IMG/VR virus record: IMGVR_UViG_3300005436_000030
Span: 1 to 28,399 of that record
DNA: 28,399 nucleotides
Source of the DNA: a virus
Strand: one strand, 5' to 3'
The translations under genes were made by a program, and so were the position numbers. Shown here piece after piece: positions 19,415 to 21,951 of the stretch. Each line of letters starts with the position of its first letter. The stretch's first letter is position 1. The notes below the pieces were generated by a model. It searched no databases. It was not told the origin of the DNA and worked only from the letters and a program-made list of their open reading frames with translations.

Positions 19415-19706
19415 CGAGAAACCTTCTCAATTCTTTTATAGCGCCCTCTAACTTTTTATTGGTCGCATAAGATTTTGACGGGAACACCTTTAGCCATTCG
19501 TAGGCATCCTCTGCCGCCGCTTGCAAATTTAACGGATTGCCTTCCTTGTCCCATTCCGGGCCAACCTTTTTGGTGGCGTCAACAAAATGGTTGGCGGTGC
19601 AGACTTGGCATGGCCTCACAGACGCCGAATGAGTCTTACCCATGGTATCCATTACATATCCAGAGTTATCAAGCGTCGATCCGCACCGATTGCAAGTTAT
19701 TTTCAT
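19407..19706 (-). CDS. Zinc-ribbon hypothetical protein
   Basis: This 99-residue protein has paired cysteines CNRC (5-8) and CQVC (33-36), a classic zinc-ribbon spacing, followed by a charged helical C-terminal half (AAAEDAYEWLKVFPSKSYAT, then LEGAIKELRRFLDE). It begins in an ATGA overlap with RusA and overlaps NinB by eight bases. A DNA-handling accessory role is plausible from its neighbours, but the protein is not recognised. Confidence 0.75.
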   Translation of the reverse strand: MKITCNRCGSTLDNSGYVMDTMGKTHSASVRPCQVCTANHFVDATKKVGPEWDKEGNPLNLQAAAEDAYEWLKVFPSKSYATNKKLEGAIKELRRFLDE

Positions 19707-20122
19707 ATCAACTGAGCCCTCACTTCTGCCATCGGTTTCGCTGCGTATCGCTTCGTCACCATCAGGTCCGTTACCTGCTTATCGTCTTTCCATACAATCT
19801 CGTTGCAGGCGTCCATCAGTAGCTTGATGGTGTTGTCCAAGTCCGGCTTGGATGTGGGATAGATGCCTCCATTTAAAGCGCTGCGCTGCTTCTTCTGTGA
19901 CCAACTGGCAGGCGGTGCAAGGTGGATTATGATCACTACCAGAACTGCTCCAACCATCGGCTCTTGACCTTGCATGGCCTGCGAGGCGTAGACCTTCACC
20001 AGATTTTCATAGTTGACTGTCTTCTCTGGAGAATAGGTAGAAACGAAGTTACCGCGTCTAGCGAATCTTGGACGGCCTTTCGCCACCGGTACGCCTGGAA
20101 TCGTGAAAACAACGTCGCTCAC
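19703..20122 (-). CDS. rusA: RusA-type Holliday junction resolvase
   Basis: This 139-residue protein (E. coli RusA is 120) shows the family elements: IPGVPVAKGRPRFARRG near the N-terminus, KPDLDN at residues 92-97, Asp104 in the helix, and VWKDDKQV at 110-117. These supply the conserved acidic metal-binding residues. It would cut four-way junctions during phage recombination or before packaging. The start is GTG overlapping the stop of the upstream 49-residue gene in GTGA. All catalytic acids appear intact. Confidence 0.93.
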   Translation of the reverse strand: MSDVVFTIPGVPVAKGRPRFARRGNFVSTYSPEKTVNYENLVKVYASQAMQGQEPMVGAVLVVIIIHLAPPASWSQKKQRSALNGGIYPTSKPDLDNTIKLLMDACNEIVWKDDKQVTDLMVTKRYAAKPMAEVRAQLI

Positions 20123-20268
20123 TTCTCCCCCTTCGCAGTTATCCGATATTTAGTGCATCTCCATCCCCACAATTCTCCGAGACTGCATTTCATCTCGCCA
20201 TGCACCAATCTTTCATGGATGCAGCCAGAGCAGGTGTTTTTTGTGCGAGGATGGATAAAGTCACTCAT
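20119..20268 (-). CDS. Small four-cysteine protein between methyltransferase and RusA
   Basis: A 49-residue frame (MSDFIHPRTKNTCSGCIHER to TAKGEK) starts in an ATGA overlap with the methyltransferase stop and ends in a GTGA overlap with RusA. Such coupling on both sides argues that it is translated. Cys13 and Cys16 in CSGC, plus Cys28 and Cys38, could form a small zinc knuckle. It also overlaps the last codons of the alternative 260-codon frame. Function unknown. Confidence 0.75.
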   Translation of the reverse strand: MSDFIHPRTKNTCSGCIHERLVHGEMKCSLGELWGWRCTKYRITAKGEK

Positions 20269-21043
20269 ATTCCAGCCCGTTCTGAAAGGAGACGCCATGC
20301 TGTTGCTGCCACCAGCGGAACTTGCCCATTACCGATTGATTTAAGCCTGTCCATCCGCTCGGCCAGATCATCAGCCACTCCGTGAATTCCGCCGATTGGA
20401 GTAGGCCAAATTCGTGTGCTAGTACCCTTGCTAAATACGACCTTCCTCCCCTGGAATCCGCCTTGACCTTTAACATTGAGTCTACTTTCATCCTTGCGCG
20501 TATTCCGTCCGTGGCTTGTGGAGTAGGCCAATATCCACATTCTCTCTCGAATATGGTCTGCACCCACATCTGCCGCTGATAGCACTCCCCATTCTGCATC
20601 GAACCCCATCGAGGCCAGATCTCCAAAGACAACTCCGAGTCCACGAATAGTGAGCATTGGGCTGTTCTCCACGAACACGAATCCGGGTTCCACTTCGCCA
20701 ATAATCCGTGCGAACTCTTTCCATAATCCGCTGCGCTTACCTGTGATTCCGACACCCTTCCCTGCCGCGCTGATGTCCTGGCAAGGAAACCCTCCAGATA
20801 TGACGTCAACAATTCCCTTCCACGGCTTTCCGTCAAAAGATTCAACGTCAGACCAAATTGGGAAAGGCGCGAGAATTCCATCGTTTTGTCGTTGCGCCAG
20901 AACTTGTGCTGCGTAGGCATCACGTTCAACTGCGCAGACTGTTCGCCATCCGAGGAGTTTGCCGCCGAGTATTCCTCCACCGGCACCTGCGAAGAGGGCG
21001 AGTTCACGGAGTCCACCAGTGCTTTGCTGAATAGCCATGTCAT
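20261..21043 (-). CDS. Overprinted frame inside the methyltransferase gene, phage 'WPTP/EWLM' family protein
   Basis: A 260-codon frame lies in the +1 frame relative to the methyltransferase, on the same strand. Its ATG overlaps the helicase stop in ATGA, the commonest start geometry here. The product carries what I recognise as a recurring phage family: SRGRELLTSYLEGFLART (73-90), KWNPDSCSWRTAQCSLF (117-133), EIWPRWGSMQNGECY (141-155), YWPTPQATDG (171-180), EWLMIWPSGWTGL (222-234) and KFRWWQQQHG (241-250). Such proteins are annotated next to phage cytosine methyltransferases, from memory. The sequence shows that the frame is open and family-like. Translation is inferred. The alternative is a by-product of nucleotide conservation in the methyltransferase frame. 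Confidence 0.55.
   Translation of the reverse strand: MTWLFSKALVDSVNSPSSQVPVEEYSAANSSDGEQSAQLNVMPTQHKFWRNDKTMEFSRLSQFGLTLNLLTESRGRELLTSYLEGFLARTSARQGRVSESQVSAADYGKSSHGLLAKWNPDSCSWRTAQCSLFVDSELSLEIWPRWGSMQNGECYQRQMWVQTIFERECGYWPTPQATDGIRARMKVDSMLKVKADSRGGRSYLARVLAHEFGLLQSAEFTEWLMIWPSGWTGLNQSVMGKFRWWQQQHGVSFQNGLEYE
20265..21038 (-). CDS. DNA cytosine-5 methyltransferase
   Basis: From the ATG at 21038, one base after the helicase stop, the protein has 257 residues; nine codons upstream are open. It has the C5-methyltransferase motifs: FAGAGG (16-21) for S-adenosylmethionine, VERD (37-40), GGFPCQDIS with catalytic Cys86, FVENSP with Glu124, HIRER (162-166) and SIGNGQVP (234-241). Motif VI reads ENS rather than ENV. 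The target-recognition segment between motifs VIII and IX is only about 45 residues, so the enzyme is compact. No restriction gene is adjacent, so it is probably an orphan enzyme protecting phage DNA. The recognition sequence cannot be predicted. Almost all of the gene is shared with another open frame. Confidence 0.92.
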   Translation of the reverse strand: MAIQQSTGGLRELALFAGAGGGILGGKLLGWRTVCAVERDAYAAQVLAQRQNDGILAPFPIWSDVESFDGKPWKGIVDVISGGFPCQDISAAGKGVGITGKRSGLWKEFARIIGEVEPGFVFVENSPMLTIRGLGVVFGDLASMGFDAEWGVLSAADVGADHIRERMWILAYSTSHGRNTRKDESRLNVKGQGGFQGRKVVFSKGTSTRIWPTPIGGIHGVADDLAERMDRLKSIGNGQVPLVAATAWRLLSERAGI

Positions 21044-21951
21044 GAGGCAAAACCACGAGGCACATCGTGATAACGTCCAGTTATCCGGTCATATTTCAGC
21101 GTCACCATTCCCGGCCTGCCTATGTGCTTGAACCGGATCTTCTGAATGTGAATGTCCACGTCCTGAGAATCAGGGTATTCCGAATCACGCCAGACGGTGA
21201 GCGCGCAGTCAGCTTTATTCCACCAGTGCTGTGAGCCGCTGATCATGTCAGGACGAGGCACTGGAAGCTTTCCTTCCTCGCGCCGCACCTTCTGTGGATG
21301 CGCTACTATCCAAACGTGAACTTGATTGATCCTGGCCCAATTACGCACCGTTGAAAGGGCCTGTGAGATGTATTCTGTTTCGCTCTGGTTGCTTGAGCGC
21401 CAGTGTTCCAGTTCATTCCACGGATCAATGACGACACCACGTTTTGCATCTGGAAACTTGATCAAGAATTCTTGCGCAGCGTCCAGAACATCCTTTAGGG
21501 AAAAGCTCCCGCTGGTGGTCTCAGTGAAGGCGAAGGATTGATGTAACTCTTCGGTTAACTCCGCTATTTCCGTCTCAGTGATGCGCTCCGTAGGGCCTCT
21601 GCCGAAGGGTTTACCGGAGATTTTCTCCAACATCTTGGTAACGTGAAAATGTACCGGCTGATTCTCGAAACTGAATACGGCTATCTTCCAGTTATTGCGC
21701 GACAGGTTAAGCAGCAATGCATCAATAAACTCTGATTTACCGGATCCGGGCCACCCAGTTACGATGGTCATTTGACCCGGCAATACCGTGTAATATTTGT
21801 CCAGCGAAGCCCATCCCGTCTTATCGCCAGAAGGCATGCCGTTGCGGTACATTTCATAGACTGCATCAGCGTGAGCATAGGGGCTGGTGAGCCGTGGCTT
21901 GCGCTCTATCGCTGCGTCAAGCATTGCTGCCCCTCTGGTAGCGTTAGCCAT
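21040..21951 (-). CDS. DnaB/Twinkle-type replicative helicase ATPase
   Basis: This 303-residue RecA-fold ATPase has Walker A GWPGSGKS (66-73), FSFEN with the catalytic-type Glu96, Walker B VVIDPWN (173-179) and VWIVAHPQK (213-221), the pattern of DnaB-family motif H3 in phage helicases. It lacks an N-terminal primase or DnaB interaction domain; the preceding gene supplies a separate zinc-finger domain. It probably forms a hexamer and unwinds the phage fork. It begins in an eight-base overlap with the CHC2 gene and ends in ATGA with the following frame. A role as a loader or recombinase-like ATPase cannot be excluded. Confidence 0.88.
   Translation of the reverse strand: MANATRGAAMLDAAIERKPRLTSPYAHADAVYEMYRNGMPSGDKTGWASLDKYYTVLPGQMTIVTGWPGSGKSEFIDALLLNLSRNNWKIAVFSFENQPVHFHVTKMLEKISGKPFGRGPTERITETEIAELTEELHQSFAFTETTSGSFSLKDVLDAAQEFLIKFPDAKRGVVIDPWNELEHWRSSNQSETEYISQALSTVRNWARINQVHVWIVAHPQKVRREEGKLPVPRPDMISGSQHWWNKADCALTVWRDSEYPDSQDVDIHIQKIRFKHIGRPGMVTLKYDRITGRYHDVPRGFAS

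Follow-up and report, generated by a model that had tools for sequence, protein, structure and literature searches.

Two overlapping same-strand frames at a phage locus as the probable two chains of one C5-cytosine DNA methyltransferase

Two overlapping frames on the minus strand of a viral DNA stretch of 28,399 nucleotides (hereafter the window) very probably encode two chains of a single C5-cytosine DNA methyltransferase, which would be translated side by side and assemble into a working enzyme. Judged from sequence comparison, the locus is best read as an overprinted two-chain methyltransferase of the M.EcoHK31I type, in a variant in which the second chain (beta, or 'EWLM' chain) covers nearly all of the first (alpha), and beta is best read as the motif IX/recognition part of the same enzyme that is absent from alpha. 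The principle has a precedent; the features that set this case apart are its near-total overlap, tandem starts and beta N-terminal region, along with the breadth of occurrence across phages and prophages. The genes and the start region of the locus are as follows.

20265 to 21038, minus strand: alpha, catalytic chain of the C5-cytosine methyltransferase (257 aa when started at the ATG at 21038; 266 aa from 21065)
20261 to 21043, minus strand: second chain, beta ('EWLM'), with 260 aa read in the +1 frame of alpha; proposed recognition-domain/motif IX subunit (kept beyond the shuffle null in 134 loci; PHROG 1008)
21036 to 21043, minus strand: tandem start region ATGACATG, with the beta ATG and then the alpha ATG 5 nt on
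21040 to 21951, minus strand: DnaB-like helicase, upstream, whose stop codon touches both starts (PHROG 239/19)
19703 to 20122, minus strand: RusA-like resolvase, downstream (PHROG 140, E 3.2e-47)

The ORF coordinates bear out the arrangement described in an earlier note made from the letters alone, namely two minus-strand frames of 266 codons (20265–21065) and 260 codons (20261–21043) that have about 780 bases in common at an offset of one base, beta being the +1 frame relative to alpha. The starts also lie where that note had placed them, five bases apart at 21043 and 21038: the beta ATG (21043–21041) overlaps the helicase stop TGA (21042–21040) as ATGA, and the alpha ATG (21038–21036) lies one base past that stop, with a longer alternative start for alpha at 21065. 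This position of both starts on the helicase stop suggests termination-reinitiation. The tandem arrangement is kept among homologues, in which the alpha start mostly lies 4 nt ahead of the beta ATG, often after a purine-rich Shine-Dalgarno-like stretch. The gene surroundings are of phage type (terminase, portal, DnaB-like helicase, primosomal protein and RusA), and no restriction gene was recognised adjoining the locus.

The second frame is a real gene under selection and no by-product of the first. When the alpha protein was held constant and its synonymous codons were shuffled in 134 distinct homologous loci, 754 stops were expected in the +1 frame and 183 were observed, and as the latter include the end stops, internal stops are fewer still. 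The +2 frame of the same loci, used as a control, showed no depletion (2232 stops observed versus 1842 expected). Relative to expectation, +1 stops stand at 0.32 in alpha versus 1.00 in flanking control ORFs (n = 500), and for the window alone synonymous shuffles contain 5.5 +1 stops on average, with zero stops in 0.015% of shuffles. The +1 product was closer to the window's beta than any shuffle in 133 of the 134 loci. Frequent interruption of the second frame by stops, named in the earlier note as the mark of a by-product, was not found among homologues: beta is open across at least 90% of the hit in 129 of 134 loci, and an interrupted beta beside an intact alpha occurs in L026, L067, L085 and L090. 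The suppression of synonymous sites that the note had proposed to look for in the methyltransferase frame is present, with four-fold site differences of 0.110 in alpha versus 0.285 in flanking genes at 85–90% protein identity and 0.255 versus 0.481 at 75–80%, a roughly two-fold effect that is a strong trend and no exact estimate because the control bins are small and matched by protein identity, not pair by pair. Excess constraint on beta peaks at alpha codons 49–78 and 229–243, and in the latter stretch the identity of beta (0.62) exceeds that of alpha (0.52).

The contrary view, that the EWLM frame is an untranslated by-product of conserved alpha codons and base composition, draws on the fact that some beta motifs shadow alpha motifs (GMxxNG of beta shadows GYDAxW of alpha) and that in several relatives the beta HMM still gives shuffled alphas 60–80 bits, so that part of the similarity among betas is indeed a by-product of alpha. 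Observed scores are higher than these, however, and the depletion of +1 stops, the similarity beyond all shuffles and the suppressed four-fold sites all speak against it. So does the beta start codon, since the Asn codon holding the beta AUG is AAT in 110 and AAC in 1 of 111 loci, versus 441 AAT and 530 AAC elsewhere, as well as the conservation of EWLM beyond the end of alpha in two loci (L238 and L244, discussed below). On the evidence of the shuffles, the control ORFs and the four-fold sites we reject this view, which we consider highly improbable.

Homologues of the two proteins share DNA with a fixed offset, which was a further point raised in the earlier note. A tblastn search with beta returned 46 phage records and 5 plasmids at 29–45% identity, annotated, where annotated at all, as methyltransferases or hypothetical proteins. 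Of 173 forward-oriented loci (some of them duplicates), 172 have a +1 offset between the best hits of the two proteins, the lone exception (L004) being split by a frameshift, and beta lies in the +1 frame of alpha in all 80 loci found via beta in bacterial and archaeal genomes, which upholds the idea that the EWLM family sits within this methyltransferase lineage. No separate, non-overlapping EWLM gene was found among these 80 loci, all of which were recovered through one beta motif pattern. Motif X in alpha combined with EWLM in the +1 frame was seen in 252 loci. Among the Enterobacteriaceae, 28 of 392 genomes gave a match, many of these being divergent methyltransferases whose open +1 frame terminates in LNPxxxxWLMGxPxEW. 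As to annotation, the beta frame is given as the CDS and alpha is unannotated in Stenotrophomonas phage SOVA965 and Vibrio phage 1.236.O (L171 1884–2384; L168 1986–2684), and several other records present the reverse case, with alpha annotated and beta not. In L250 and L255, both frames shift together part-way, as from a single indel or an assembly error.

Alpha was said at first to carry all the main C5-methyltransferase motifs, and this did not hold. It matches PF00145 with an E value of 3.6e-30 over profile positions 4–168 of 324 only, and motifs I, IV (PCQ), VI (as ENSP), VIII (RxR) and X are present, but motif IX and the recognition domain are missing: the Pfam match ends at profile position 168, residues 189–238 are predicted to be disordered and conservation of alpha is lowest in that same region (0.24–0.28). 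AlphaFold models the large domain and the motif X helices (234–247, 249–264) with confidence, and Foldseek matches the model to M.HhaI/M.HaeIII with an E value of about 2e-12. Motif VI reads ENSP, not the usual ENV, in most of this subfamily (window 20658–20669, minus strand, residues 133–136). The sites of alpha and beta referred to here and below are the following.

20778 to 20786, minus strand: catalytic PCQ (motif IV) of alpha, invariant in 46 aligned alphas
20352 to 20501, minus strand: alpha residues 189–238, the expected place of the recognition domain and motif IX, predicted disordered (pLDDT about 40)
20316 to 20333, minus strand: motif X core GNGQVP of alpha, from the alignment and the AlphaFold helices
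20342 to 20392, minus strand: beta residues 218–234 including EWLMIWPSGWTGL, a motif IX-like element with the largest excess conservation of beta; alpha reads GVADDLAERMDRL
20585 to 20617, minus strand: WPRWGSMQNG element of beta, overlapping the alpha region ahead of motif VIII (P144, W146, G147 and G152 nearly invariant)

Beta contains every element first picked out in it (WPRWGSM, YWPTP, EWLMIWPSGWTGL and KFRWWQQQHG), and the reading GVADDLAERMDRL that had been given for alpha ahead of motif X comes from the same DNA as EWLMIWPSGWTGL in beta. Neither Pfam nor NCBIfam holds a model of beta, and its matches to their methylase models are weak. PHROG 1008, called DNA methyltransferase, matches residues 56–185 of beta at profile positions 18–148 (E 4.7e-23), and at positions 131–323 it also matches the TRD-IX-X part of a monomeric enzyme, that of Mycobacteriophage Saroj. 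AlphaFold of beta alone was poor (pLDDT 56), Foldseek with this model gave no PDB fold match and a beta profile search of PDB sequences returned nothing. The EWLM element is motif IX-like in position and by profile; the IX sequence in its canonical form is confined to the E. coli/L272 homologues. When PDB was searched with a profile of the monomeric enzymes, the matches stopped short of the motif IX region, and our equation of EWLM with motif IX therefore draws on its position, on the L272 and L374 homologues and on the weak model matches. Separately, the N-terminal MTWLFSKAL of beta (window 20985–21043, minus strand) is coded upstream of the conserved N-terminus of alpha, where alpha is not conserved, and by eye the DNA there resembles an imperfectly repeated copy of the stretch that encodes ELALFAGAGGG.

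The position of the element is seen most directly in monomeric enzymes. The enzyme of Mycobacteriophage Saroj has 463 aa and contains EWMMGWPAGWVT, in frame, between its motifs VIII and X, and the element is likewise in frame between VIII and X in many actinophage relatives. These Saroj-type C5 methyltransferases (PHROG 116/363/1008) have the same catalytic part, with EWMMGWPAGW between VIII and X, but differ in that they are one chain in one frame. In an hhalign comparison, beta aligned to the monomeric actinophage set with 97.4% probability over 21 columns, and the EWLMGWPxGW element of beta corresponds to the motif IX position in these enzymes.

Motif X, which lies in alpha in the window and the 252 loci, has its place in beta in L238, L244 and some actinophages only. 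More specifically, in Paraburkholderia L238 and Spirochaetia L244 alpha stops after motif VIII and beta has EWLM followed by motif X; in these two lineages motif X has passed out of alpha and into beta. In Mycobacteriophage YungJamal, gp7 and gp6 (locus 639–1229, 1021–1584) each carry the annotation DNA methylase; their overlap is about 200 nt, and motif X is in gp6. L238, L244 and gp6 resemble M.AquI, a split enzyme whose second chain comprises the distal variable region and motif IX (PMC3404938). The window differs from M.AquI, which is known here by description, in having motif X in alpha and not in the small chain.

The joining of the two frames in one ORF (Saroj), or their division across a frameshift (Mycobacterium phage Seabastian), could also be taken to mean that a programmed +1 frameshift in alpha yields an alpha-beta fusion with no independent beta start. 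Beta has, however, its own conserved AUG beside that of alpha, often after a Shine-Dalgarno-like stretch, its open frame and its conservation begin at residue one, and motif X stays in alpha in the window family; we thus regard such a fusion as very improbable and two separately started chains as the better account. In Seabastian the methyltransferase is split by the frameshift into gp75/gp76 (L004 2805–3564), and the N-terminal half of beta shares a frame with the C-terminal half of alpha. Three actinophage monomers (L176 1932–3320, L298 and L310) give beta HMM scores of 56–63 bits in the +1 frame versus a shuffle mean of 16–19, although their recognition part is in frame, and this +1 signal is possibly a trace of a dual-coding ancestor.

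M.EcoHK31I recognises YGGCCR, and we take its two chains to be of 309 and 176 aa and its small gene to be located in another frame of the large one. From a match in the Enterobacteriaceae (L272), 81 E. coli genomes were reached at 80–90% DNA identity. In one of them, AR_0017, alpha is 309 aa long and convergent with a gene annotated as a NotI-family restriction endonuclease, and the +1 frame holds an ORF that opens with ATG, encodes exactly 176 aa and finishes in RRMLPSEYERLQGFPENWTLIDSEQ, which by eye is motif IX in canonical form. E. coli L374 has an alpha of 309 aa, a beta of 176 aa in the +1 frame with RRMLPSEYERLQGFPENWT and a neighbour annotated as a NotI-family REase, and it fits M.EcoHK31I by these sizes and this neighbour, not by a sequence match. 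The L272 beta, orthologous to that of L374, has weak matches to TIGR00675 (dcm) at positions 200–302 (E 0.0028) and to PF00145 at positions 246–298 (E 0.027), and the stretches matched are the part left out of alpha's match. The beta of the window is akin to these E. coli loci: the window-family beta profile scores E. coli/L272-type loci above all 100 shuffles each, and L374 and L373 resemble the window pair both in this score and in having beta in the +1 frame of alpha.

M.EcoHK31I is made up of two chains, of which the larger bears motifs I–VIII and X and the smaller motif IX (PMC3404938), and the window pair is alike in having an alpha with I–VIII and X but without IX. The pairing, which the earlier note knew from no description, thus has a precedent, and the matching E. 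coli loci share the +1 overlap; the phage pairing itself was not found described in the open-licence literature, which is no proof of absence. The two arrangements differ in that the E. coli beta is internal and 176 aa long, while the phage beta of 260 aa starts beside alpha, overlaps it almost totally and has an extra N-terminal region, and in that a NotI-family gene adjoins the E. coli loci and no restriction gene was recognised beside the phage locus. Since the published account places the predicted recognition domain of M.EcoHK31I in the large subunit (PMC3404938), a recognition part in beta is something we can only infer. Another case of a second protein in a different frame of a phage methylase gene is the ShiLan domain, which hides an out-of-frame HNH endonuclease (PMC11855218), but this is a mobile insertion encoding a nuclease and differs in origin and function.

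The earlier note had suggested that the second protein might regulate, guide or protect the enzyme, and it might accordingly be asked whether both frames are translated with beta as a separate accessory protein (a regulator, inhibitor, anti-restriction factor or chaperone) outside the catalytic complex. Accessory functions are common in phages, and beta has a conserved N-terminal region of ~110 residues to which nothing corresponds in the 176-aa beta of E. coli or in known structures. Against this, alpha itself lacks both motif IX and a recognition domain, the EWLM element is in frame in the monomers and motif X moves between alpha and beta, and we consider an accessory role unlikely. Beta is better read as the missing motif IX/recognition part. 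We posit that alpha would carry out AdoMet binding and catalysis (motifs I–VIII and X) and that beta would contribute motif IX together with, as we infer, much of the part that recognises DNA. Both chains would come from one mRNA, with beta read one base over from a start a few bases away, and either of the two adjacent AUGs may be used by ribosomes that initiate there or that reinitiate after terminating at the end of the helicase gene. Alpha and beta translated in this way would form a complex that is the working enzyme, and the phage's own DNA would presumably be modified by it.

Long same-strand overlaps in which both frames are conserved across phyla are rare in prokaryotes, and an arrangement described for one E. 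coli enzyme appears common in phages, where standard annotation retains only one of the two proteins. If our reading holds, the search for the specificity of many phage methyltransferases has been directed at the wrong protein, attempts to express the annotated gene in recoded form would fail, and the family would offer a tractable test of two frames sharing one stretch of DNA. A broader proposal, which we offer tentatively and hold to be somewhat doubtful as a whole, is that whole-length dual coding of a split DNA methyltransferase may be an ancient, self-preserving architecture in phages and prophages of many phyla, in which overprinting locks the catalytic and recognition chains together and annotation drops one of them, the monomeric and M.AquI-like enzymes would be frameshift derivatives, and the N-terminal ~110 residues of beta would add a further, undescribed function.

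A minor observation concerns the downstream end of the locus, where a small Cys-rich ORF (MSDFIHPRTKNTCSGCIHERL..., window 20119–20268, minus strand) starts, by eye, in an ATGA overlap with the alpha stop; as it also spans the beta stop, three reading frames meet there.
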